From contig NZ_KE557318.1 in assembly GCF_000442315.1 (NCBI RefSeq), positions 113,641 through 177,640 of the forward strand: a DNA stretch of 64,000 nt, given 5' to 3'. Each line of letters begins with the position of its first letter. Positions within the stretch are counted from its first letter, which is position 1. The position numbers were made by a program, and so were the translations under genes. The stretch is from Rubellimicrobium thermophilum DSM 16684 (GTDB lineage: Bacteria; Pseudomonadota; Alphaproteobacteria; Rhodobacterales; Rhodobacteraceae). Positions 36,489 through 53,131 of this stretch are shown piece by piece. The notes under the pieces were generated by a model. The model did not search any database and was not told the DNA's origin. It saw only the letters and a list, made by a program, of their open reading frames with translations.

Positions 36489-36711
36489 GCGGCCTCCTTG
36501 ATGACCATCCGGTTCGGGTCGGGGGACGACGCAAGGCCTTGGGTCTGGCTTCGGCGGCAGAAACGACCCGCCGCCCGGCTGGAAGACCGGCGCGATACTT
36601 GACAGTTTCAGTAAATCATCTCACAAGCCGGCGCAATCGGGTTCGATGACCAGCCCGGGAGCGCCAGCCTCTTTCGCCAGCCAGCCGCCCATCTGCAAGA
36701 GAGAAGCGAGA

Positions 36712-38810
36712 GTGACACAAGGCGCGCGTCCGCGCAGGCCCGTCATGGCCTGCCTCATGATCACCGCCATGGCCGCCGTCCATGGCCCCGCCCTGGCACA
36801 GGAAACGGCCTCTTCGGGCACCTTTCTGGGTCGCCTGATCCTCGGGGCCGGGCAACAGAAGGTGGCCATCGACACACCGCAATCGGTCACGGCTGTGGAA
36901 CAGGAGGATCTCGACCGCGAGCAGCCCCAGACCGTGGGGCAGGTCTTCCGCAACGTGCCGGGGGTCCAGATCGCAGGATCCGACAGGCCTCTGGGATTTG
37001 CCTTCAACATCCGCGGGATCGGCGCAACCGAGCAGACCGCCAGCGAGGCGCGGATCATCGTCAATGTCGATGGCGTTCCGAAATTCTACGAACAGTACCG
37101 GATGGGCTCCTTCTTCTCGGATCCCGAGCTCTATCGCCGGGTCGAGGTGCTGCGCGGCCCCGGTTCGGCCACGCTCTACGGTTCAGGTGCCATCGGCGGT
37201 GCCGTCAATTTCGAGACCAAGGATGCCGGCGACTTCATTCCCGAAGGAGGGGAAGGCGCTCTCCGGCTGCGCTTCGGGATCGAATCGAACGGCAACGGCC
37301 GGCTCTTCTCGGGGATCTATGCCTCCCAGCCTGTCGAAGGGGCCGAATTCCTTGCCGCCCTGAACTACCGCACCGCCGATTCCTATCAGGACGGGGATGG
37401 GAATACCGTTCAGGGAACGGACTTCGCGGCCCCATCGGGCCTTCTGAAGGGAACCTTCGCCCTGGCGGAGAACCAGACCCTGCGTCTGTCCTGGCAGCGC
37501 TTCACCTCCGATGCGGACGGAGCAGCCTATGCCCAGACCGGCGGGGCCGGTGCCGCCGATGTCTTCGGTCTGGTCGATCGCAATGTGCAGGATGACACCC
37601 TCAGTCTCGACTGGCGGATGGAGGGCGGGGCCTGGCTGAACCCGCATGTGCAGCTGGCCTATTCCGATACCACGGTGATCCAGGAGAACGCGCGGAGCAC
37701 GACCGGCACGGCGCGGCCCTGCTTCCCCTATGCGGCCAGCAGCAATGTCTTCTGCGATACCGAATATGCCTACCGCACGGCGATGCTGAAGTTCGAGAAC
37801 ACCGGTGAGACCTCGGGGGCAGGGTGGGACGCCTTCCTGACCTATGGTGTCCAGTTCACGAACCAGCAGCGTGTGGCCGACAGCGCAGGGCCGATCGGCT
37901 TCCACCCCGAGGGACAGGACCGCAAGGTCGGTCTGTATGCCCAGGGGGAATTCGTGATCGCGGATCGCCTGACCCTGATCCCCGGGGCACGCATCGACCT
38001 TGCCCGCCGCACGGCCGGTGCCGATGTGCCGGGCGGCAGCGAGGTCGAAGATCAGGCAAGCGCCCTGACCTTCGCGCGCTCTACGATCTGACGGAGGATC
38101 TGTCGGTCTTCGGTTCGGTGGCCCGGACCGAGCGACTGCCCACACTTGACGAGCTCTATTCCTGGTCCGCGACGAAGGCCCCGGCGCTCGATCTCGAGAC
38201 GGAAACCGCCCTCAGCTTCGAAACGGGTCTGGCCTTCAGCCGGCAGGACGTGCTGTCGGCCGGCGACAGCCTGGAGCTGAAGGTCACCGTCTTCCGCAAC
38301 AGCATCGAGAATCTCATCACCACCACCCCCGCGACCGACACGGTCTATTTCCGTAACCTTGCCGAAGCGGAATTCACCGGGGGCGAGATCGAGGCCGGTT
38401 ACGAAGCCGATCATGTCTTTGCCCGTCTCGCCTATGCGCGGGCCAGGGGAGAGGACAGCACCTATGGCTATACGCTGGCCACCTCTCCGGCCGACAATCT
38501 CGCGCTGACGCTGGGCGGGCGGCTGCCGGATCGCGGACTGGAATTCGGCTGGCGCGGGACCTTCGTGCAAGAGATCACCACCGCGACCCGCAGCACGACA
38601 ACCGGGGTGATCACCCCGACCACCTATCCGGGCTACACGCTGCACGATCTCTTTGTCAGCTGGAAACCCCAATCCGGACCCTTCGAGGGTTTCGAGGTGC
38701 AACTCGCCATGGAGAACGCCTTGGACGAAAGCTATCGCAACAATCTCTCGCTCGATGAGGGCCGGGGGCGGACCGTCAAGCTCACCCTGGGGCGGGTCCT
38801 GACATGGTAA
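36712..38810 (+). pseudogene. hmuR: TonB-dependent heme/hemoglobin receptor HmuR, single-base frameshift
   Basis: About 699 residues after repair. GTG 36712 begins a signal peptide ending near ALA-QE; ATG 36646 in frame is an alternative. A plug domain ('DTPQSVTAVEQEDLDRE', 'VGQVFRNVPGVQIAGSDRP', 'VEVLRGPGSATLYGSGAIGGAVNF') is followed by a 22-strand barrel ending in an aromatic residue ('TLGRVLTW'). The frame breaks at about 38073-38077, where one base restores '..TFAALYDLTEDLS'. TTGACA at 36599-36604 may be a -35; no clear Fur, Irr or RirA box could be assigned. It imports heme across the outer membrane. Confidence 0.87.
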
Positions 38811-41776: not shown

Positions 41777-42811
41777 TCAGCCGATGGCGAGACCCTTGTC
41801 GTCAAAGGCATGAATCCGCGCCGGGTCGAAGGCGAGGCCGACCGTATCGCCGGGGACGATCCGGTATCCGGCATCGGCCTCCACGATCATCTGGCCTGCG
41901 GCGCTGTCGAGATAGACGAAGCTTGTATTGCCCAGATGCTCGACCACGGTTGCCCGTGCATCGAGATGTCCCTCGCCCGGTCCCGTCAGCCGGAGATGCT
42001 CGGGCCGGATCCCCAGCTCCGTCGCACCCGGCGGGACAGCGGGAAGCCGCCCGCCCCCGGGTATCCTGCCTTCGGAATCCACCGGCACGAAGTTCATCCC
42101 CGGACTGCCGATGAAGCCGGCCACGAAGCGATTGGCCGGATGGTTGTAGAGCTCGAGCGGACTGCCGACCTGCTGGATGCGCCCCCGGTCAAGCACCACG
42201 ATCCTGTCGGCCAGTGTCATCGCCTCGACCTGATCATGGGTCACATAGATCATGGTCGTGCCGATCTCGTTGTGCAGCTTGGCCAGCTCGATCCGCATCT
42301 GCACCCGCAGCAGCGCATCGAGATTGGACAGCGGTTCGTCGAAGAGGAAGACCTGCGGTTCGCGCACCAGCGCCCTGCCGATGGCAACACGCTGACGCTG
42401 TCCGCCCGACAGCTCGGCCGGGCGCCGGTCGAGCAGGTGATCCAGCTGGAGAAGCCGGGCCACACGTTCGGCCGCGGCACGCTGCTCTGCCCGCGGGCGC
42501 CCGGCCAGGGACAGCGAGAAGGCGATGTTCTGCGCCACCGTCAGATGCGGATAGAGGGCATAGGACTGAAAGACCATGGCCACGCCGCGGCTCTTGGGCT
42601 CGGCATGGGTCACGTCGCGGCTGCCGATGCGGACGCTTCCCCCGCTCACCCTCTCAAGTCCGGCAATCATCCGCAGCAGGGTGGACTTGCCGCAGCCCGA
42701 AGGCCCCAGCAGCGCGCAGAAGGATCCGTCCTCGACCGAAAGGCTCAGGTCGCGGATCACGTCCACCGCGCCAAAGCTCTTGGAGATGGAGGCCAGTTCG
42801 ACGCTCGCCAT
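41777..42811 (-). CDS. Sugar ABC transporter ATP-binding protein (UgpC/MsmX type)
   Basis: 344 residues: Walker [10 protein letters not shown] near 38, Q-loop '[12 protein letters not shown]', signature '[15 protein letters not shown]', Walker B '[11 protein letters not shown]', H-loop 'VTHDQVEAM' and a C-terminal TOBE region ending in 'FDPARIHAFDDKGLAIG'. Last gene of the leftward importer operon next to the arabinofuranosidases. It powers the two permeases upstream. Confidence 0.92.
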   Translation of the reverse strand: MASVELASISKSFGAVDVIRDLSLSVEDGSFCALLGPSGCGKSTLLRMIAGLERVSGGSVRIGSRDVTHAEPKSRGVAMVFQSYALYPHLTVAQNIAFSLSLAGRPRAEQRAAAERVARLLQLDHLLDRRPAELSGGQRQRVAIGRALVREPQVFLFDEPLSNLDALLRVQMRIELAKLHNEIGTTMIYVTHDQVEAMTLADRIVVLDRGRIQQVGSPLELYNHPANRFVAGFIGSPGMNFVPVDSEGRIPGGGRLPAVPPGATELGIRPEHLRLTGPGEGHLDARATVVEHLGNTSFVYLDSAAGQMIVEADAGYRIVPGDTVGLAFDPARIHAFDDKGLAIG

Positions 42812-42814
42812 GGC

Positions 42815-43666
42815 TTACCCCTTGATCCCGGTAGACAGCGCGATGGCCTGGGTGACCCTGCGCTGGAAGAGAAGATAGGCAAGAGCCACGGGCAGGCTGG
42901 CCAGGACTGCGCCGGCCAGGATGCGCCCGTAGGCAACGCCAAAGGCGTCCTGGACCGTGGCGATCCCCACGGTCACGGTCATCATCCGTTCATTGTTTGC
43001 GGCAAGGAAAGGCCACAGGAAACTGTTCCATGCCCCGATGAAGGTGATGATCGCCATCGCCGTCGTGACCCCCCAGTTCATCGGCAGGAAGAGCCGGAAC
43101 AGCAGCTGGAACTCGCTGGCGCCGTCCATGACGGCCGCCTCGCGGTATTCGCGTGGCAGGCTGTCGAAGAATTGCTTGTAGACGATCACCGTGACCGGGG
43201 TGATGAGCATCGGCAGGATGATCCCCAGATGCGTGTTCAGAAGTCCCACGCCGGCGATGATGATGAAATGGTTCACGATCAGCGCCGGGACCGGGATCAT
43301 GAAGGAAGCGAGGATGATCCACCACAGCAGCCGCCGCCCCGGAAAGCGCAGCTGCGAGATCGCATAACCCGCACAGGCCGAGACGAGAACCGCGATGACG
43401 GTGATCGCCACCGAGGTGATCGTGGAGTTCAGATACCAGACCGGCAGGTTCGAATTGGTGATGCCGAAGATGTAGCCCTGCAGGGTGGGGTTCGACGGCC
43501 AGGGGGAGAATTCCCGAACCGTGTCCGCATCGAAGCGCAGGCTTGTCACCAGCGCCCAGTAGATCGGCAGGAACCAGATTGCTGCGGCGATCAGCGTCAA
43601 CAGCGTGAGAAGCACGCCAGCCAGGTCGATGCGACGGGTGGGATGTCCGGCGGACAGGGCGGTCAT
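42815..43666 (-). CDS. Carbohydrate ABC transporter permease (MalG type) of arabinofuranoside cluster
   Basis: 283 residues from ATG 43666 (overlapping the previous stop). Six membrane helices and the EAA loop 'LPREYREAAVMDGASEFQLLFRLFLPM' (residues about 180-206). Ends 'QRRVTQAIALSTGIKG', typical of sugar MalG-type permeases. Three bases before the ATPase gene. Confidence 0.92.
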   Translation of the reverse strand: MTALSAGHPTRRIDLAGVLLTLLTLIAAAIWFLPIYWALVTSLRFDADTVREFSPWPSNPTLQGYIFGITNSNLPVWYLNSTITSVAITVIAVLVSACAGYAISQLRFPGRRLLWWIILASFMIPVPALIVNHFIIIAGVGLLNTHLGIILPMLITPVTVIVYKQFFDSLPREYREAAVMDGASEFQLLFRLFLPMNWGVTTAMAIITFIGAWNSFLWPFLAANNERMMTVTVGIATVQDAFGVAYGRILAGAVLASLPVALAYLLFQRRVTQAIALSTGIKG

Positions 43667-44541
43667 CGCGCACCCCTCATGCGCAGGAGCTGGAACTGCA
43701 GCACCGAGAAGATGGCCACGATGATGAAGAGCATCACGGCAACTGTCGCGGCATAGCCGCCCTGATTCCGCTGAAAGGCGGTTTCGTAGATGTATTGCAC
43801 CATGACCATGGTGGAACGTGTCCGGCCGCCCTGAGCGAACAGGTAGACCTGATCGAAGATCTTGAGTTGAAGGATGAGCTGGATCGTCAGGCACAGCACG
43901 GTGACCGGCCAGATCAGTGGCCAGGTGATCCGTGTGAAAAGCTGCCAGCGCGTTGCGCCGTCAAGACTTGCCGCCTCGTAGAGATCGCGCGGGATGTTCC
44001 TCAGCCCGGCCAGAAACAGCAGGATGGAAAAACCGTTGGTCCACCAGATGGTGATCAGGGCGACCCCCGGCATGAACCAGGGCAGGGTCCGCCAGACATT
44101 GACGTTGCGGCCCGCCAGGGGTTCGATCACGCCCTGCAGCAGGCCGAAGCGCACATTCGTGAGCCAGTCCCAGATGACGTAGACGACGGTGACCGGCAGG
44201 ATAAAGGGCAGAAAGAACAGCGCGAGCACCAGGCTCTGGAGCCAGCCTCTCAGCCGCGAGACCATGAGGGCGATCAGCAGCGCGACCGCCGTGCCGGGAA
44301 CCACGGTCAGGATCACGAAATAGCTCGTGTTCCACAGGGCCGTGTGAAACACCGGATCGGCGAGAAGCGCCCTGTAGTTGTCGAGCCCGATCCAGTCCCC
44401 TTTCCCGATCAGGGGAGCATTGGTGAAGCTGATCGTCACCATCTGGATCGTGGGCCAGACGAACATCCAGCCATAGATCACGAGAAAAGGTGTGATCAGC
44501 ACCAGGGCGGCGATCAGTTCCTTGCGTCGGTCGGTCAGCAT
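43663..44541 (-). CDS. Carbohydrate ABC transporter permease (MalF type) of arabinofuranoside cluster
   Basis: 292 residues with six membrane helices; the conserved cytoplasmic loop is 'IPRDLYEAASLDGATRWQLFTRITWPL' (residues about 193-219). It partners with the MalG-type permease. A strong hairpin (44571-44600) lies between it and the binding-protein gene upstream. Confidence 0.92.
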   Translation of the reverse strand: MLTDRRKELIAALVLITPFLVIYGWMFVWPTIQMVTISFTNAPLIGKGDWIGLDNYRALLADPVFHTALWNTSYFVILTVVPGTAVALLIALMVSRLRGWLQSLVLALFFLPFILPVTVVYVIWDWLTNVRFGLLQGVIEPLAGRNVNVWRTLPWFMPGVALITIWWTNGFSILLFLAGLRNIPRDLYEAASLDGATRWQLFTRITWPLIWPVTVLCLTIQLILQLKIFDQVYLFAQGGRTRSTMVMVQYIYETAFQRNQGGYAATVAVMLFIIVAIFSVLQFQLLRMRGAR

Positions 44542-44570
44542 GGGCTCCCCGGTCGGGTCTGGTCGGGTCG

Positions 44571-44600
44571 GGCCGGCCCCGGCACAGGGTGGGGCCGGCC
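44571..44600 (-). terminator. Perfect 10-bp hairpin between binding-protein and permease genes
   Basis: GGCCGGCCCC (44571-44580) and GGGGCCGGCC (44591-44600), loop of ten. It sits 14 bases after the binding-protein stop and before the permease start, the place where sugar ABC operons commonly carry an mRNA-stabilising or partial-termination structure. No U tract. Confidence 0.65.
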
Positions 44601-44613
44601 ATTGCGCAAGGGG

Positions 44614-45879
44614 TCAGAGCCTGTCCATCGCCGCCTTCATCTCGGCCACGGCGGTGGCGGCATCCACCTCGCCGTTCATGGCCGCGGTGAAGGCATTGCC
44701 GGCTTCCTCGAACAGGGCAGAGGCCACGCCTGCATGGATCGACTTCGGGTCGAAGACCATGTTGGCGATGAGCGAGGCATAGGTCGCCTGCGGCTCCATC
44801 GTCTGGTATTCCTCGGACTGAATGACGGCCAGGTTGGCAGGAATATGCCCCGCCGTGGCCCAGAACAGCGAATGTTCGGACATCCAGCGGATCACTTCGA
44901 GCACCGCCGCATGCTTTTCAGCGGTTGGCGGTTTGCCGACATTGTTGGGGATGGCGAAGGCATGGCTGTCGGCATAGGTGCAGGGCCGGTCGAAGAGCAC
45001 AGGCAGCTCGATCGCGCCCCATTCGAAAAGCTCGCCCCGCGCAGCAAGATCGGTCATCGTGGGAACTTCCCAGACGCCGTTGATCATGAACGGCGCCGCC
45101 CCCGAGGTGAAGAGGGCCACCGTGGTCGGGTAATCGGTGTAGGAGGGATTGTAGCCGTTGGCGACCCAGTCGGCGATCACCTGCACCGCGTTTTCAAGCT
45201 TCTGCTGACTGTCGCCAGGGAACCAGTCGCCGTCGCCGCCGATGGTGCCGCCCTGCTGGCAGAGAAGGGAATAGATGGTGCGGAAGGCAAAGCCGCCATC
45301 GGCCGTCACCTGCGCGATGGCCCACTCTGCACCATTGTCCTTGAGCGTCTGCAGTGCGGCGTTGAAATTCTCGAGCCCGTCGAGCCCGGTTGGCAGCCCG
45401 TCCTCGCCGATGAGGCCCGCTGCCTCGAGCATGTCCTTGTTGTAGTAGAGGACGATGGGATGGGTGTCGAAGGGGATGGCATAGGTCGTGCCGTCCACGT
45501 TCACCGCTTCCCAGGTCGAGGGGGCGAAGCTGTCGGGTGACAGGCCCATCGCGGCAAGATCCTCCGGCGTGATCGGGGCCAGCGTGCCCTGACTGACCGC
45601 GAGGGGGATGCGGCTTGCGTGATAGGTCATGATGTCAGGGCCTTCCCCGACCGCCGCCGCTGTCTGGACCTTGGTATAGAACGGAATGCCCCAGTCGAGC
45701 GTGGTGGCATTGATCTGGATTTCGCCCGCATGTTCGGCGTTGAAGTCGCTGATGAGCTGCTTCATCCGCACCCCGTCGCCGCCACCCAGGAAATCCCACC
45801 ATTCGACGATCTCCTGAGCCTGCACGCCGGGCGCCAGCAGCGCCGAAGACAGCAAGGCCGCCCGAAATGTTCTGGTCAT
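44614..45879 (-). CDS. ABC sugar-binding protein of the arabinofuranoside cluster
   Basis: 421 residues. Signal peptide MTRTFRAALLSSALLAPGVQA, then a family-1 binding protein ('EIVEWWDFLGGGDGVRMKQLI', 'YAIPFDTHPIVLYYNKDMLEAAG', 'PFMINGVWEVPTM'). Aromatic residues near the mature start (EWWDF) could stack with a sugar ring. First gene of the leftward importer, behind a promoter at 45992-46019 and facing the ArsR-type gene. Ligand probably an L-arabinofuranose-containing oligosaccharide, judged from the GH51/GH127 genes. Confidence 0.92.
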   Translation of the reverse strand: MTRTFRAALLSSALLAPGVQAQEIVEWWDFLGGGDGVRMKQLISDFNAEHAGEIQINATTLDWGIPFYTKVQTAAAVGEGPDIMTYHASRIPLAVSQGTLAPITPEDLAAMGLSPDSFAPSTWEAVNVDGTTYAIPFDTHPIVLYYNKDMLEAAGLIGEDGLPTGLDGLENFNAALQTLKDNGAEWAIAQVTADGGFAFRTIYSLLCQQGGTIGGDGDWFPGDSQQKLENAVQVIADWVANGYNPSYTDYPTTVALFTSGAAPFMINGVWEVPTMTDLAARGELFEWGAIELPVLFDRPCTYADSHAFAIPNNVGKPPTAEKHAAVLEVIRWMSEHSLFWATAGHIPANLAVIQSEEYQTMEPQATYASLIANMVFDPKSIHAGVASALFEEAGNAFTAAMNGEVDAATAVAEMKAAMDRL

Positions 45880-46187
45880 CCGATCCTCCCTTTGCCCGGG
45901 GGCCTTGTGCGCCCCTCGACCCGTTCTTTCCGGATCCGGCCCGGCATTCCCGGAGCGCCCCCGTCGCGAGGACGCGGATCCGACAGGGGAAATCCTATGG
46001 AAGACACGACTTGTGTCAACAAGAATGTAGATACATATCGGTGTCCATGATTATTGAAGATCATAGAGCCATGCTGGAAGGCGAATGCCCATGCTCCTGC
46101 GCGCTGGAACAATTTCCAATTTGGGCAGGAGGGGTCGCTTGATGGCATCCGTGATGCCGGACTAGACTGGATGTGTTCCATGGAGGC
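45880..46187. promoter_or_regulatory. Divergent control region between sugar-binding protein and ArsR-type genes
   Basis: About 310 bases without a gene. The leftward promoter is at 45992-46019. A GATACATATC site (46030-46039, arms GATA/TATC) lies just upstream of its -35. The rest (46040-46187) shows no convincing small gene. Confidence 0.5.
45992..46019 (-). promoter_or_regulatory. Sigma-70-type promoter for the arabinofuranoside importer
   Basis: On the minus strand TTGACA (46019-46014), a 16-bp spacer and TAGGAT (45997-45992), about 113 bases before the binding-protein start. A GATA/TATC site lies immediately upstream. Confidence 0.5.
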
Positions 46188-46200
46188 TGATACGGTATCA
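46188..46200. promoter_or_regulatory. Palindromic operator overlapping the ArsR-type start codon
   Basis: TGATACGGTATCA is a perfect inverted repeat (TGATAC-G-GTATCA) whose last A is the first base of the regulator's ATG. The ten-base string GCTGATACGG recurs at 47191-47200 ahead of the GH51 gene, which argues for a shared regulator site. Confidence 0.6.
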
Positions 46201-47132
46201 TGGGTCGCAACTTTCTCATCGTCGATCCCGAAGAAGGTCTCGGCGTTCTCAAGGCTCTTGCCTCTCCGGCGCGGATTCAGGCCCTGAAGCTTCTGCGCCG
46301 GGAGGGGCCGCTGAACGTCAACGAGATCGCCCAGCGCCTGTCCCTGCCGCAATCCACGGTCTCGGCCAACATTCAGCTTCTGGAGGAGGCCGGCCTCATC
46401 CGGACCGAGACGCAGCGCGCCCGCAAGGGCAACCAGAAGCTCTGCCACAGTCAGTTCGACGAGATTCTGGTCCTGCTCAAGGATCAGGATGCGGCGGCTG
46501 CCGATGCCAATACCATCGAGGTGGCCATGCCGCTCGGCCTCTACACCTCCTGCGAGGTAACGGCGCCCTGCGGCCTCTGCTCCACGCAGGGCATCGTGGG
46601 GCTTCTCGATGTGCCGGACAGCTTTCTGGATCCCGGCCGCATGGATGCGGCTCTCATCTGGTTCACCCGGGGCTATGTTGAGTATCAGTTTCCGAACAAT
46701 ATCAAGTTGATGAAGGGGAGCCTGCGCTCGCTCGAGTTCTCCATGGAGCTCTGTTCGGAAGTGCCGGGGACGAGCCCCAACTGGCCCTCGGACATCACTG
46801 TCTCGGTCAACCGGGTCGATATCGGCACATGGACAAGCCCGGGCGATTTCGGCGACCAGCGCGGCGTCTATACGCCCGACTGGTGGAAGCTGAAGGGCAG
46901 CCAGTATGGCAAGCTCAAGACCTGGCGGGTGACACCCGAAGGCACCTTCGTGGATGGCGTGAAGATCTCGCCCGTCTCCCTCAAGGATCTCGACCTCGAC
47001 AGGCATCGCTCGATCCGCCTGCGCATCGCGGTGCGCGAGGATGCGCGCCATCCCGGTGGCGTCAACATCTTCGGACGCGGCTTTGGCAACTATGACCAGG
47101 ACATCGTGATGCGGATCACGACCTCCGGCTAG
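46200..47132 (+). CDS. ArsR-type winged-helix regulator with large C-terminal sensor domain
   Basis: 310 residues, far longer than plain ArsR proteins (about 100). The N-terminal HTH runs over about 15-85 ('LASPARIQALKLLRREG', 'NEIAQRLSLPQSTVSANIQLLEEAGLI'). The remaining 220 residues open with a Cys group at 118, 124 and 127 ('SCEVTAPCGLCST') and continue as a beta-rich, possibly sugar-binding, domain ('TVSVNRVDIGTWTSPGDFG', 'GVNIFGRGFGNYDQD'). It sits between the importer and glycosidase operons and probably represses both and itself. Whether the Cys residues bind metal is unknown. Confidence 0.85.
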   Translation: MGRNFLIVDPEEGLGVLKALASPARIQALKLLRREGPLNVNEIAQRLSLPQSTVSANIQLLEEAGLIRTETQRARKGNQKLCHSQFDEILVLLKDQDAAAADANTIEVAMPLGLYTSCEVTAPCGLCSTQGIVGLLDVPDSFLDPGRMDAALIWFTRGYVEYQFPNNIKLMKGSLRSLEFSMELCSEVPGTSPNWPSDITVSVNRVDIGTWTSPGDFGDQRGVYTPDWWKLKGSQYGKLKTWRVTPEGTFVDGVKISPVSLKDLDLDRHRSIRLRIAVREDARHPGGVNIFGRGFGNYDQDIVMRITTSG

Positions 47133-47151
47133 GCCGGGGCGGGGATTCTTC

Positions 47152-47180
47152 TTGACGACCTTTCCCTGTAGTCAGATATA
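47152..47180 (+). promoter_or_regulatory. Promoter of the GH51-GH127 operon
   Basis: TTGACG (47152-47157), a 17-bp spacer and GATATA (47175-47180). The -10 is part of GATATACATC and is followed by GCTGATACGG (47191-47200), related to the operator at 46188-46200, so repressor binding would cover the -10 and start site. Confidence 0.6.
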
Positions 47181-47239
47181 CATCGTATTTGCTGATACGG
47201 ATTCCGGGCCGCCGGGTCCTGCGCAGAAGGGAGGGCAAC

Positions 47240-48754
47240 ATGAAGGCGACCGTCACGGCGCACCGGGATTTCACCATCGCCGCCATCGACGAGCGGATCT
47301 ATTCCGCGTTCCTCGAGCATCTGGGCCGGGCGGTCTATACCGGTATCCATGAACCAGATCATCCGACGGCTGATGCCAACGGCATGCGCGGCGACGTGGC
47401 CGAGCTGGTGCGCGAGCTCGACATCCCCTTCGTGCGCTATCCCGGCGGCAATTTCGTCTCCGCCTACAATTGGGAGGACGGGATCGGTCCGGTGGAGCAG
47501 CGCCCGGTGCGGCTCGACCTCGCCTGGCACACCTCCGAATCGAACCGCGTCGGCATCCACGAATTCATGGCCTGGTGCGACACGGTGAACACCCGGCCGA
47601 TGCTCGCCATCAATCTCGGTTCCCGCGGGCTCGATCAGGCGCGGAACTTCGTCGAATATGTCAACGGACCCCTGGGCAGCTACTGGGGCGACCTGCGCAA
47701 GAAGAATGGCCGGGCCGAGCCCTGGAATTGCCGCCTGTGGTGCCTCGGCAACGAGATGGACGGGCCCTGGCAGATCGGCCACAAGACGGCCGAGGAATAC
47801 GGACGGCTCGCCAACGAGACGGCCAAGGCCCTGCGGGCCTTCGACAAGGGGCTGGAACTGGTCGTCTGCGGCTCCTCCAATTCGGACATGAAGACCTATC
47901 CGGAATGGGAGCGCATCGTCCTCGAACATACCTACGAGGCGGTCGATCACATCAGCCTGCACATGTATTTCGCCAACCGCGACGGCGACACGCAGACCTA
48001 TCTTTCGCTCAATCACAAGCTCGACCGCTACATCGCGACCGTCGCCGCAGCGATCCGTCTGGTGAAGGCGAACAAGAGGTCGAAGCGCGATGTCCATATC
48101 AGCTTTGATGAATGGAATGTCTGGTATCATTCCAATGCCGAGGATCGGGCCGTGCTCGAGGGGAATGCCGGATGGCCCCATGCGCCGCGGCTGCTCGAGG
48201 ACATCTACATCTTCGAGGATGTGCTTCAGGTCGGGTGTATCCTCAACACCTTCATCCGGCGGTCGGATGTGGTGAAGATCGCCTGCATCGCGCAGCTGGT
48301 GAATGTCATTGCCCCGATCATGACCGAGCCGGGCGGGCCGGCCTGGCGGCAAACGATCTACTATCCCTACTACTTCGCTTCCCGCCATGGGCGGGGAACG
48401 GCGCTCAATCTGTCGGTCAGCTGTCCCGGCTACGACAGCATTCATGACGACAATGTGCCCTGGCTTGATATCGCCGGGGTCCATGACGAGGCGGCCCGCA
48501 CCCTCACCTTCTTTGCCATCAATCGGCACGCGGCCGAATCCTTGCAGACCGAGATCGCCCTGCAAGGCTTCGGCGCGGCCCGTGTGACCGAACACAAGGT
48601 GATGACGCATGAGAATCTGCGCGCGCGGAATACGCTGGCCGATCCTGATGCCGTCGTTCCGCGCGACGGGGCCGGCGCAAGAGTCGCCGATGGACTGCTG
48701 ACGGTGACGCTTCCGCCGCATTCCTGGCAGATGATCCGCGTCACGCTGGCCTGA
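47240..48754 (+). CDS. Alpha-L-arabinofuranosidase, GH51
   Basis: 504 residues from ATG 47240 (GGGAGGG upstream), the usual length of bacterial GH51 enzymes. TIM barrel plus C-terminal beta domain. The acid/base is E172 in 'WCLGNEMDGPW' and the nucleophile E291 in 'SFDEWNVWY'. 'RYPGGNFVSAYNWEDGIGP' is the family motif near residue 75. No signal peptide, so it works in the cytoplasm on imported arabino-oligosaccharides, releasing alpha-linked L-arabinofuranose. Two bases before the GH127 gene. Confidence 0.94.
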   Translation: MKATVTAHRDFTIAAIDERIYSAFLEHLGRAVYTGIHEPDHPTADANGMRGDVAELVRELDIPFVRYPGGNFVSAYNWEDGIGPVEQRPVRLDLAWHTSESNRVGIHEFMAWCDTVNTRPMLAINLGSRGLDQARNFVEYVNGPLGSYWGDLRKKNGRAEPWNCRLWCLGNEMDGPWQIGHKTAEEYGRLANETAKALRAFDKGLELVVCGSSNSDMKTYPEWERIVLEHTYEAVDHISLHMYFANRDGDTQTYLSLNHKLDRYIATVAAAIRLVKANKRSKRDVHISFDEWNVWYHSNAEDRAVLEGNAGWPHAPRLLEDIYIFEDVLQVGCILNTFIRRSDVVKIACIAQLVNVIAPIMTEPGGPAWRQTIYYPYYFASRHGRGTALNLSVSCPGYDSIHDDNVPWLDIAGVHDEAARTLTFFAINRHAAESLQTEIALQGFGAARVTEHKVMTHENLRARNTLADPDAVVPRDGAGARVADGLLTVTLPPHSWQMIRVTLA

Positions 48755-48755
48755 C

Positions 48756-50654
48756 ATGACCAGATGGCAGCCAGTTCCCTTCAGGGATGTGCGCTTCACC
48801 GGGCGCTTCTGGTCCGAGCGGCTCGAGACCGTGCTCACCCGCACGATCCCAAGCCAGTACGAGAAGCTCGGCGAAAGTGGCATTCTCGAGTCCCTCGAGC
48901 TGAAGGATCCGCCGCCGCCCCTGCGCATTCCCCGCTGGCCGAACGGACACACGCATCAGGTCTTCTGGGACAGCGACATCGGCAAATGGATCGAGGCCGC
49001 CTCCTATGCGCTGCACCATCGCCGCGATCCGCTGATCGAAGCCCGGATCGAGGCGATCGTGGACCGCTTCGAGGCGGCACAACTGCCGGACGGCTATGTC
49101 AACTTCTGGTATCTGGGGCGAGAGCCGCATCTGCGCTGGACCAACCTGCGCGACCGGCATGAACTCTACAATGCCGGCCACCTTCTCGAAGGTGCCATCG
49201 CCTATTTCCAGGCGACGGGCCGGCGGCGCTTCCTTGCGGTGATGGAGCGCTTCGTCGACCATATCCGCAGCACCTTCGGCCGTGGCGAGGGGCAGAAGCG
49301 TGGATATCCCGGGCATCAGGAAATCGAGATCGCCCTGATGCGCCTCTACCGGCTGACCGGGGATCGTCGGCATCTCGAGCTTGCGCTCTACTTCATCGAC
49401 GAGCGCGGGCGACAGCCGCATTACTATGACGAGGAGGCGCGTGCCCGGGGCGAGGACCCGGCCGCCTATCACCAGAAGACCTATGAGTATCAGCAGGCCC
49501 ATCTCCCGGTTCGCGAGCAGACCAAGGTTGTGGGTCATGCGGTGCGCGCGATGTACATGTATGCCGCCATGGCGGATCTCGCGGCCGAAACGGGAGATGA
49601 GGATCTGCGCCGCACCTGCGAGCGGCTCTGGCAGGATGCCACCCTGCGGCGGATGTATGTGACAGGGGGGTTCGGGTCCTCGGCCGGAAACGAGGGATTT
49701 ACCGCCGATTACGACCTGCCCAACGACACCGCCTATGCCGAGACCTGCGCCTCGGTCGCCTTCGTGTTCTGGGCGCACCGGATGCTGCATCTCGATCTCG
49801 AGGGTCGATATGCCGACCTCATGGAGCGCGCGCTCTACAACGGTGCGCTGTCGGGCCTGTCATGGGATGGCACCCATTACTTCTACGAGAACAAGCTCGA
49901 ATCGGACGGCAGCCATCGGCGCTGGCCCTGGCACCCCTGCCCTTGCTGCACGATGAATGTGGCGCGTCTTGTCGCTTCGGTCGGCGGCTATTTCTGCTCG
50001 GTCGCCCCTGATGGCCTGGCCTTCCACCTCTACGGCGGCGCGACGGTGGAGACGACCATCGGCGGGCAGGGTCTGCGGGTGGAGGAGCGCTCGGACTATC
50101 CCTGGGACGGGCGGATCGTCCTGACCGTCACGCCGGCAGTCCCGCTACGGATGGCCCTGCGGCTGCGCATCCCCGGTTGGTGCAGGGGCGCCGCAGCGGC
50201 GGTGAACGGGGAGGTGATCGATGTCGATGCGCGGACCGAGCGCGGCTATCTGGTGCTCGATCGGCTCTGGTCCCCGGGCGACCGGGTGATGCTGGACCTG
50301 CCGATGCCGCCCGGGCGGATCTGGGCTCATCCGCTGGTCCGGGCGGATCGCGGCCGTGTGGCGCTGCAACGCGGACCGCTCATCTATTGCCTCGAGGCCG
50401 CCGATCATCCGGTGCCGGTCGCCGATCTGCGGTTGCCCCGCAGCGCTGCCCTTGCGGCAGTGCCGCGCGCCGATCTCTTTGGCGGGATCGTGACCCTGGC
50501 GACGACGGCGCGGGCCATCCGGACGGATGACAGGGAGGATCTGTATCGCTCCGACCCGCCGTCCGAGATCGAGGCGCCTCTGGTCGCGATCCCGTATTTC
50601 CTTTGGGGGAATCGCGATGCGGGGGCCATGGCGGTCTGGCTGCCCGAGACATGA
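48756..50654 (+). CDS. Beta-L-arabinofuranosidase, GH127
   Basis: 632 residues, an (alpha/alpha)6 barrel with C-terminal beta domains. The unusual cysteine-zinc active site of GH127 is complete: E329 and C331 ('YAETCASVAF') and C397/C398 ('PCPCCTMNVARL'), matching Glu338, Cys340, Cys417 and Cys418 of Bifidobacterium HypBA1, where Cys417 is the nucleophile. No signal peptide. It removes beta-linked L-arabinofuranose, as in hydroxyproline-rich plant glycoproteins, and complements the GH51 enzyme made from the same transcript. Confidence 0.93.
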   Translation: MTRWQPVPFRDVRFTGRFWSERLETVLTRTIPSQYEKLGESGILESLELKDPPPPLRIPRWPNGHTHQVFWDSDIGKWIEAASYALHHRRDPLIEARIEAIVDRFEAAQLPDGYVNFWYLGREPHLRWTNLRDRHELYNAGHLLEGAIAYFQATGRRRFLAVMERFVDHIRSTFGRGEGQKRGYPGHQEIEIALMRLYRLTGDRRHLELALYFIDERGRQPHYYDEEARARGEDPAAYHQKTYEYQQAHLPVREQTKVVGHAVRAMYMYAAMADLAAETGDEDLRRTCERLWQDATLRRMYVTGGFGSSAGNEGFTADYDLPNDTAYAETCASVAFVFWAHRMLHLDLEGRYADLMERALYNGALSGLSWDGTHYFYENKLESDGSHRRWPWHPCPCCTMNVARLVASVGGYFCSVAPDGLAFHLYGGATVETTIGGQGLRVEERSDYPWDGRIVLTVTPAVPLRMALRLRIPGWCRGAAAAVNGEVIDVDARTERGYLVLDRLWSPGDRVMLDLPMPPGRIWAHPLVRADRGRVALQRGPLIYCLEAADHPVPVADLRLPRSAALAAVPRADLFGGIVTLATTARAIRTDDREDLYRSDPPSEIEAPLVAIPYFLWGNRDAGAMAVWLPET

Positions 50655-50945: not shown

Positions 50946-51035
50946 GGAGACGTGGCCGAGTGGTCGAAGGCGCACCCCTGCTAAGGGTGTAGACGGGAAA
51001 CCGTCTCGTGGGTTCGAATCCCATCGTCTCCGCCA
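50946..51035 (+). tRNA. tRNA-Ser (GCU)
   Basis: 90 bases including an encoded CCA. The acceptor stem GGAGACG pairs with CGTCTCC, followed by G and CCA. The anticodon stem is CACCC/GGGTG with loop CTGCTAA, anticodon GCT at 50980-50982. A long variable arm (GACGGGAAACCGTC) marks a type II tRNA, and the T-loop is GGTTCGAATCC. CTTTTTG directly after the gene may end transcription. It borders the mobile-element region on its right. Confidence 0.96.
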
Positions 51036-51374
51036 CTTTTTGAACAAAAATCTGATTATAATGGCTTTTTCTCAAGCCAGTCCCCGGAACATCCCCCATT
51101 GCGACCGGGATTCATCCGGACGTTCAGGGACTCCGAACACGGACTCCGAAGCGGCGGCGGATGCCGAACAGGCTGGGCACCGCCGCGGAGCGCCTCGACA
51201 GGCGGCCGCGACCCGCGGAGAGGAGCATGCAGCCACAGCCGCTGCGTACCCCGATCTTCCCTCTGCCACTAGGCATCACCTGAGCTGAATGCATCGCTGG
51301 GGATTCTCCGATTGTTCGGTTCTGATTCGAGCTGCCTGGCCGGGGGGGGGAGGCCGGCAGGCAGGTCGAGAGCT
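51036..51374. other. Gap between tRNA-Ser and IS630 transposase
   Basis: About 340 bases with no gene I can support. The right part (from about 51269, a CTAG) includes the left end of the IS630 element and a nine-G run at about 51342-51350. No copy of the tRNA 3' end that could mark an attachment site was seen nearby. Confidence 0.4.
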
Positions 51375-52323
51375 TTGTCGGTCGATCTTCGGGAGCGGGT
51401 TCTGGTGGCGGTGGCGGCGGGCGCAACGCACCGCCAGGCGGCGGCACGGTTCGGGGTCAGCGCAGCCAGCGTCAGCCGGTGGCGGAGGCGCAAGCGGGAG
51501 CAAGGGGATGTCCGGCCGAAGGCGCTTGGCGGCGACCGGCGATCGAAGCGGATCGAGGCCGTGAAGGGGCTGATCCTGTCGCTGCGCGAGGAGACGCCCG
51601 ACATGACGCGTGACGAGATGCGCCAGGCCCTTGCCGAGCGCGGCCATGCGTTCGGCTTCGGCACCGTCCAGCGCTTCTTCAAGCGGCACCGCATGACGCG
51701 CAAAAAAAGACTGCCCACGCGGCCGGGCAGCAGCGCCCCGACATCCTGAAGCAGCGTCCGGCCTGGTGCGACGATCAGCCCGACCTCGATCCCGGGCATC
51801 TCGTCTTCATCGACAAGACTGGGCCTCCACCAACATGGCACGGCGCCACGGATGGGCCCCGCGCGGCGAGCGCCTGCGCGTTGGCATCCCCCACGGGCAC
51901 TGGAAGACCACCCCCTTCGTGGCGGGCCTCACGCTGCGCGGCATGATCGCGCCCCTCGTGCTCGACGGCCCGATCAACCGCATCGCCTTCGAGACCGATG
52001 TCGAGAAGGTGCTCAGTCCCGAACTGCGTCCCGGCGACATCGTCGTGCCGGACAACCTGTCAAGCCACAAGGGGCCGAAGATGCGCGCGATGATCGGGGC
52101 GGCAGGCGCCAGCCTGCTTGACCTGCCGCCCTGCTCACCGGACGTCAACCCTATCGAGAACGCCTCCGCCAAGCTCAGGGCCCTCCTCAGAAAGGCCGCC
52201 AAGCGCACCGTCGATGGCCTCCGGACCGCCATCGGCCGCCTCCTCGACACCTTCACCCCGCAGGAATGCGCCAACTGCTCCGCCGCCGCCGGATACGATG
52301 CAACGTGATCGCTTGCGCAGCTA
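51269..52323 (+). mobile_element. IS630-family insertion sequence, degenerate
   Basis: About 1.05 kb holding the transposase remnant at 51375-52308. Limits are approximate: TA dinucleotides, the usual IS630 target, occur at both proposed ends (CTAG at 51269-51272 and CTAA at 52321-52324). Terminal inverted repeats are only weakly matched (AGCTG..GC on the left against GCTGCGCAAGC on the right, read inward). Confidence 0.6.
51375..52308 (+). pseudogene. IS630-family transposase, disrupted
   Basis: The N-terminal helix-turn-helix part starts 'LSVDLRERVLVAVAAGATHRQAAARFGVS'. It changes frame at an A7 run (about 51702-51708, after 'MTRKK'), continues 'TAHAAGQQRPDILKQRPAWCDDQ..', and changes again near 51820, where 'FIDKTG' should read FIDETW. 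The DDE residues are otherwise visible: Asp in 'LVFID', Asp in 'VPDNLSSHKG' and Glu in 'NPIENA'. The A7 could be a programmed slippage site; the second break is a real defect or an error. Confidence 0.85.
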
Positions 52324-52330
52324 AGGGCCT

Positions 52331-53131
52331 GTTAGAGAACTCTTGCATGCTGGACTGAGTTAGGTTGGCATGGAGATACTGGATGACGTGGAGTGGGGGC
52401 GGCTGAAGGGGGCGCTGGATGCGGCCCGGTCTGGGACAGGGCGTCCGATGGGCGATGAGCGCCGTGTGATCGAGTCCGTGATCTGGCGGCAGAGGAACGG
52501 CGCCAAGTGGCGCTCGCTGCCGTCCGAGTTCGGACCTTGGTGGAAGGCGGCGCAGATGCACATCCGCTGGTCGCGGTCGCGCGTGTGGGAACGGGCCTTC
52601 GAGCATCTGCGCGAGGCGGGGCGGCCCGATCTGGGCGAGGTGTTCCTGGACGGCATCTCGGTGCGGGCTCACCACAAGGCGGCGGGCGCAAAAGGGGGGG
52701 GGCTGAGGCACGCCCTAGGCCGATCCCGCGGCGGCTTCGGGACCAAGGCCTTGGGCGTGGCTGACGCGAAAAGACGGGCCGTGCTGTTCCTGCTGCTGCC
52801 CGGCCAGGCGAGCGAGGTGCGGGCCGGGCCGGCCGTCTTGGAGCTACTGTGCCCCTTGGGGCCCATCGGTCGCGTCGTCTGCGACCGTGGATATTCTTCC
52901 GACCCTGGCGCGACGCCATCCGCGCCGTCGGAGCCATCCCTTGCGTGCCCGGCCAGCCCACCTATCCCCGGCCCCACCGCACGACCGCGCCGCCTACTGC
53001 AGACGCCACCGCGTCGAGAACCTCTGGGCACGCCTCAAGGAAACCCGCGCCATCGCCACCCGATATGACAAAACCGCAGCCAGCTTCCTTGGTAGGCTGC
53101 ATCTCGCCGCCGCCTGGACTGGTTGTCTAAC
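52331..53131 (+). mobile_element. IS5-family (IS427-like) insertion sequence
   Basis: Inverted ends GTTAGAGAAC (52331-52340) and GTTGTCTAAC (53122-53131) match in nine of ten positions and flank an IS5-type transposase gene. True ends may extend a few bases outward. It sits immediately against the right end of the IS630 element. Confidence 0.75.
52370..53131 (+). pseudogene. IS5-family transposase, disrupted
   Basis: The first part is intact: 'DDVEWGRLKGALDAARSGTGRPMGDERRVIESVIWRQRNGAKWRSLP' (residues about 5-50), then 'LDGISVRAHHKAAGAKGG' with the first catalytic Asp and 'VVCDRGYSS' with the second. After about 52890 it shifts frame ('WRDAIRAVGAIPCVPGQ') and again before 'HRVENLWARLKETRAIATRYDKTAASFLG', which holds the catalytic Glu. 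Some IS427-group elements use one frameshift; two suggest decay or errors. Confidence 0.83.

Follow-up and report, generated by a model that had tools for sequence, protein, structure and literature searches.

An ArsR-type regulator with a predicted beta-sandwich sensor domain beside arabinofuranosidase genes in Rubellimicrobium thermophilum and its relatives

ArsR proteins are best known as sensors of metals and redox state. The idea that members of this family control arabinoside genes is already in print (PMC8579813, PMC4428132). In Caldicellulosiruptor, the ArsR-family protein ArbA (also ArbR) was predicted in 2021 to regulate abfA; its sites were predicted to lie where a repressor would bind, and the authors regarded it as the first factor of the ArsR family to be linked to carbohydrate utilisation (PMC8579813). 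ArbA and the regulator described here share an ArsR-family gene adjoining an alpha-L-arabinofuranosidase gene as well as predicted sites in repressor positions, and both come from computation alone; ArbA differs in its host, in the divergent orientation of abfA and arbA, and in the location of its three sites, all in the intergenic region between these two genes. The likeness stated here is one of gene context and site position. Furthermore, an ArsR-annotated gene is found in the arabinan cluster of Geobacillus 56T3 (PMC4428132). Like our regulator gene, it adjoins a CUT1-type importer and arabinan enzymes, but it is known as an annotation alone and is likened here by annotation and gene context. 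An ArsR-family gene named 'araRS' is also mentioned for the arabinose cluster of Lactobacillus rossiae (PMC4855831); PMC8960804 and PMC11575207 had no bearing on the matter.

Among the papers listed by a literature search that covered titles and the openings of abstracts, with few subscription papers, there was neither an ArsR-CBM fusion nor an ArsR-family regulator of sugar genes that had been studied by experiment. Added here are an alphaproteobacterial branch, its operator, the dependence of this operator on the regulator, and the prediction of a CBM-like domain. The window, i.e., the whole stretch of 64,000 nucleotides of R. thermophilum DSM 16684 that was analysed, contains the features listed in Table 1.

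Table 1. Positions, strands and supporting evidence of the features discussed, in window coordinates.
Feature	Position	Strand	Evidence or remark
ABC importer, CUT1-type: solute-binding protein, two permeases, ATPase	41777..45879	-	Pfam/NCBIfam
Importer promoter TTGACA-N16-TAGGAT	45992..46019	-	consensus scan, 10 of 12
Importer-side operator, predicted, GAT-N4-ATC-N9-GAT	46030..46051	.	same element in 22/30 importer promoters, window included
Likely regulator promoter TTGATG-N18-TAGACT, degenerate operator (GAT-N3-ATC kept)	46139..46168	+	position and sequence like orthologues', by eye
Start-codon palindrome TGATACGGTATCA, not conserved	46188..46200	.	exact match; includes A of regulator ATG
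Regulator gene, 310 aa	46200..47132	+	ORF; HTH_5, HTH_20; 80 full-length relatives at 70-80% identity
Winged helix-turn-helix, about residues 14-75	46239..46424	+	Pfam, NCBIfam; model matches CzrA 4ggg_B
C-terminal beta-sandwich domain, residues 103-310, predicted sensor	46506..47129	+	AlphaFold2 model; CBM36 match
Cys118, Cys124, Cys127	46551..46580	+	only Cys124 invariant in 108 sequences
arfA promoter TTGACG-N17-GATATA	47152..47180	+	by eye; same spacing (16-17) at 21/76 sites
arfA operator, predicted, GAT-N4-ATC-N9-GAT	47175..47196	.	relaxed form in 51/77 arfA promoters, window included
arfA, GH51 arabinofuranosidase	47240..48754	+	NF051901, 856.5 bits, cut-off 625
GH127 beta-L-arabinofuranosidase-like gene	48756..50654	+	PF07944, E 3.2e-105

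The regulator and its two domains

The regulator is real and conserved across relatives. The initial annotation had described it as a 310-residue ArsR-like protein, and both the open reading frame and the ArsR-type HTH at residues 20-69 (Pfam/NCBIfam profile match) agree with this. Membership of the winged helix in the ArsR/SmtB superfamily follows from HTH_5 (38.8 bits, cut-off 22) and HTH_20 (41.4 bits, cut-off 27), and the NCBIfam profile HTH_metalloreg scored 57.3 bits against a cut-off of 55. In structural comparison, the winged helix of the full-length model matched CzrA (4ggg_B) with a Z-score of 11.9 across 82 residues. While this fold is common to the ArsR/SmtB metalloregulators, our regulator differs from CzrA-type proteins by about 210 further residues beyond the winged helix, by its sugar-gene partners, and by the loss of candidate metal-binding cysteines across its family.

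For the additional residues (103-310), no Pfam family was found at E<=1, hence no CBM profile match, and a profile search of the PDB returned one nanobody (E 0.35). An AlphaFold2 model of this part, built from 81 sequences, is a beta-sandwich (pLDDT 74.5, pTM 0.77); the full-length model is weaker (pLDDT 73.2, pTM 0.57). The top structural match is the CBM36 module 1w0n (Z 9.4, 112 residues, rmsd 2.4 A, 11% identity), and ranks 1-22 are all CBM36, CBM6 or CBM35 modules or sugar enzymes containing such modules, the matched part in some of these enzymes presumably being the carbohydrate-binding module. Residues 101-305 of the full-length model likewise matched the CBM-bearing chain of xylanase J (Z 9.7). 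The margin for this likeness is small, since unrelated folds (Latent TGF-beta, Cry toxins, Eph receptors) follow closely at Z 7.8-8.4, and the lowest Foldseek E-value for residues 103-310 was 7e-4, to BcsB. The loop 217-236 is modelled with low confidence, yet it is among the most conserved stretches (0.91 versus 0.73 for the rest of the domain). A search for the domain in other architectures gave matches in 11 of 398 genomes from the phylum, all of them in open frames of 309-388 aa.

Taken with moderate confidence, the C-terminal domain thus appears to be a beta-sandwich nearest to carbohydrate-binding modules, which is a fold lead and not an assignment to a family: the predicted fold is nearest to that of CBM36/6/35 modules, whereas the domain lacks a Pfam match, has low identity to 1w0n and is joined to a DNA-binding domain. 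The extra domain had been proposed as a possible sensor, an idea against which a non-sensing fold would speak; the folds nearest to the model are carbohydrate-binding modules, which does not count against the proposal.

Gene neighbourhood and linkage to arfA

The placement of the regulator gene between an ABC importer and GH51/GH127 genes, read from the DNA at the outset, agrees with profile matches and ORF positions. A scan of species genomes yielded 180 relatives, of which the best 80 (L001-L080; best-segment identity 70-80%) belong to Rhodobacterales, Devosia, rhizobia and others. The arrangement reported for ArbA, an ArsR-family gene beside a GH51 arabinofuranosidase gene, recurs in 76 of these best 80 loci, where arfA has the same orientation as the regulator gene and starts no more than 600 bp beyond it; in one locus (L027), arfA is present as broken pieces. 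Within the family to which R. thermophilum belongs, 17 of 394 genomes carry the regulator (E<=1e-60) and 26 carry arfA (E<=1e-100), and arfA was found in 16 of the 17 genomes with the regulator versus 10 of the 377 without it (Fisher p 7e-21), the two counts being taken as the same 394 genomes, with identical handles in both lists. This co-occurrence, together with the adjacency among the best 80 of 180 relatives, corroborates the proposed link between the ArsR-fold regulator and arabinofuranoside genes.

Matches to the regulator were also found in 270 of 72,556 plasmid records, mostly from Rhizobium and Sinorhizobium. Two more distant members likewise adjoin sugar-related genes, an importer and a 'sugar-binding domain' protein in Deinococcus aetherius, and ORFs resembling a GH43-like enzyme and a sugar transporter, judged by eye, in Enterococcus raffinosus. 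Among viral contigs, 20 stretches fit a pattern, and none of them encodes a relative of the regulator. It should be noted that the sets of 108 sequences used below for cysteine conservation and start regions are not all independent, as L088-L108 partly repeat L001-L080 (e.g., L088 equals L005 and L104 equals L046 in upstream sequence).

Several other features of the window were recorded. The GH127 protein reached 396.7 bits against the NCBIfam aceric acid hydrolase model, far under the cut-off of 950. By eye, a coding region resembling a TonB-dependent receptor (36646-38810, plus strand) is split into two overlapping frames (36646-38091 and 37824-38810), as if frameshifted, and TonB-system-like genes continue after it up to 41703. 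A tRNA-Ser (gct) lies at 50946-51035, followed by ORFs 51312-52308 and 52370-53068, which by eye resemble two insertion-sequence transposases.

Operator elements and promoter geometry

The upstream regions of orthologues, compared in sets of 81 regulator, 77 arfA and 30 importer promoters (window included; loci from the best 80 of 180 relatives), share one common architecture. ATC-N9-GAT occurs in 33 of 81 regulator, 49 of 77 arfA and 22 of 30 importer promoters, and among the spacer lengths a sharp peak stands at 9. GAT-N4-ATC was counted in 72 of 77 arfA promoters (shuffle mean 3.7) and in 22 of 30 importer promoters (shuffle mean 2.4), the shuffles ignoring the kinship of the loci. Elements of three half-sites, with relaxed half-sites, are present in 51 of 77 arfA and 22 of 30 importer promoters, and a GAT-N3 form of them in 57 of 81 regulator promoters. 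The complete set of four half-sites (ATC-N9-GAT-N4-ATC-N9-GAT) was seen in 19 of the 77 arfA promoters, whereas 30 shuffles gave no such case, kinship again being ignored. The conserved operator predicted from these counts consists of ATC-N9-GAT half-site pairs, often with GAT-N4-ATC, at the arfA, importer and regulator promoters.

These elements take in both of the motifs that the initial annotation had noted next to the promoters of the importer and of arfA. GATACATATC occurs once in the window, at 46030 near the importer promoter, as described. GCTGATACGG occurs twice, at 46186 and 47191; its recurrence at 47191-47200 stands, but its placement against the arfA -10 does not, as the site falls downstream of the -10 when the promoter is placed by eye (see below). 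A longer conserved element starts on this -10, and the GAT at 47194-47196 within the second copy of GCTGATACGG forms its final half-site.

The presence of the element follows that of the regulator. Relaxed AYC-N9-GRT was found upstream of arfA in 15 of 16 family genomes with the regulator versus 0 of 10 without it (p 2e-6), strict ATC-N9-GAT in 7 of 16 versus 0 of 10 (p 0.02), and the less specific GRT-N4-AYC alone in 14 of 16 versus 3 of 10 (p 0.009). This dependence is support and not proof, because the relaxed motif was picked after GGT/ACC half-sites had appeared in related loci and because the arfA genes of regulator-free family genomes are more distant (53-58% identity). The element was not found beside the two Deinococcus members and the one Enterococcus member examined. 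In the R. thermophilum genome (88.85% complete), ATC-N9-GAT-N4-ATC has 64 matches, among which the two window sites rank first (23.3) and third (21.1) by a matrix built from 43 distinct sites of relatives; no uniqueness is claimed for them, since another genome site outside this pair ranks second (22.2).

As side observations, many half-sites in other genera of the family (L093-L101) read GGT/ACC for GAT/ATC upstream of arfA and the regulator, with the N4 and N9 spacings unchanged, and a Labrenzia plasmid (L110) shows, by eye, four half-sites ATC-N9-GAT-N4-ATC-N9-GAT in the arfA promoter upstream of 8082.

The arfA promoter hexamers of the window (TTGACG 47152-47157 and GATATA 47175-47180) were placed by eye; the consensus scan reported the importer promoter only. 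Among 76 GAT-N4-ATC sites upstream of arfA, 21 start 16-17 bp past a TTGAC hexamer, i.e., on the -10, and 16 start 27-36 bp past it; of the 37 sites without such a hexamer, 27 start 37-39 bp ahead of the start codon, many of them in Devosia. These positions, on the -10 or downstream of it, fit repression. The element of the regulator gene itself coincides in orthologues with a pair of promoter-like hexamers, and its version in the window is degenerate. Repressor geometry, the second feature of the ArbA type, is accordingly found at arfA and at the regulator promoter of orthologues. The importer element is located upstream of the -35, which is not a typical repressor site: among the 20 promoters with the strict form, its end precedes TTGACA by 10 bp in 16 and by 11 bp in 3, the remaining one being without TTGACA. 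This fixed position is compatible with activation and may reflect it, being no proof. In a genus mate (L108), the regulator and importer genes are divergent and have one element between them.

Proposed mechanism and its alternatives

We consider it probable that the regulator is a local ArsR-fold repressor of arfA and of its own gene, which acts also at the importer and is relieved by an imported arabinofuranoside. Gene linkage, operator conservation, operator dependence on the regulator and promoter geometry are computational observations; operator binding, repression upon binding, the C-terminal fold and the ligand are what we infer. The regulator would bind ATC-N9-GAT half-site pairs, often doubled via GAT-N4-ATC, on the promoter or just past the -10, and would thereby repress arfA (GH51, then GH127) as well as its own gene. 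At the importer, where its site keeps a constant distance from the -35 on the upstream side, it would repress or perhaps activate transcription. An imported arabinofuranoside (arabino-oligosaccharide or free arabinose) would bind to the C-terminal beta-sandwich and relieve repression. This mechanism is weakened by the degenerate element at the window's own regulator promoter, by the failure to find the motif beside the Deinococcus and Enterococcus members, by the position of the importer element, by the moderate confidence of the fold model with unrelated folds close behind, by the choice of the relaxed motif after related loci had been seen, by the greater distance of the regulator-free arfA genes, and by the further genome site that outscores one of the two window sites.

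That the protein regulates arfA and the importer, but that its C-terminal domain dimerises, is structural or binds a non-arabinoside, is conceivable, though we hold it to be improbable: the moderate confidence of the model, the modest Foldseek E-values, the nearness of unrelated folds in Z and the missing CBM family match by sequence all leave room for it, whereas the uniform composition of structural ranks 1-22 and the conservation of the loop 217-236 speak against it. It appears distinctly unlikely that the regulator is an activator, not a repressor, of importer and arfA; the spacing to TTGACA in 19 of 20 importer promoters with the strict form would suit an activator, but the arfA element on the -10 or further downstream, and the overlap of the orthologues' regulator element with its own promoter, would not. 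A combined reading, in which an ArsR-fold sensor of intracellular arabino-oligosaccharides, using a lectin-like CBM36/6-type domain, places two dimers on the four-half-site operator ATC-N9-GAT-N4-ATC-N9-GAT and serves as repressor of the glycosidase operon but as activator of the importer, is offered tentatively, as one we would not expect to hold. It would amount to a sugar-sensing ArsR branch with a sensor similar to modules of enzymes that degrade cell walls.

Two further explanations concern the start-codon palindrome and the cysteines. The perfect palindrome TGATACGGTATCA overlaps the start codon exactly as first reported. As a conserved operator it was rejected: none of 108 orthologous start regions has a counterpart within 3 mismatches (the closest has 4), and perfect inverted repeats with 6-bp arms and spacers of 0-5 number 231 in the window versus 196-236 in five order-1 Markov shuffles, i.e., chance level. 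With up to 2 mismatches, the motif has 2 matches in the window versus 0.46 expected. The palindrome could still matter in R. thermophilum alone, since the 10-mer GCTGATACGG is common to it and to the region of the arfA operator. That it serves as an operator for the regulator's own gene in this species would also agree with its exactness and with the degeneration of the usual element, but is unlikely given its non-conservation, the chance-level frequency of such repeats, and half-sites 5 bp apart where the conserved element has 3 or 4. As for the cysteines, Cys118, Cys124 and Cys127 are present as initially noted, together with Cys82 and Cys185. A metal/redox sensor would use Cys82, 118, 124 and 127 for Zn(II) binding or for disulfide formation, and would thereby tie arabinofuranosidase expression to zinc or thiol state; the ArsR fold, the HTH_metalloreg score just above its cut-off and the invariance of Cys82, Cys124 and Cys127 in 101 closer sequences are in line with this. 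Conserved metal ligands were, however, not found family-wide: Cys127 is missing in both Deinococcus members and the Enterococcus member, Cys82 in Labrenzia, D. aetherius and Enterococcus, and Cys118 in many sequences, leaving Cys124 alone in all 108. Since the partner genes are sugar genes as well, we rate such a sensor as highly unlikely. Metal sensing as the common function of the regulator family is thus unlikely from the alignment, and the suggested role of Cys118/124/127 is weakened family-wide; a clade-specific cysteine role is possible because of the three residues invariant among the closer sequences.

With an ArsR-fold protein whose sensor binds carbohydrates, the ArsR family would reach into sugar catabolism; the predicted sensor resembles modules of plant-cell-wall-degrading enzymes. 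Such a protein comes with a predicted operator that is directly testable, and it would give a function to those regulators next to arabinofuranosidase genes, for instance in plasmid records, whose annotation says no more than 'ArsR family' or 'metalloregulator'.
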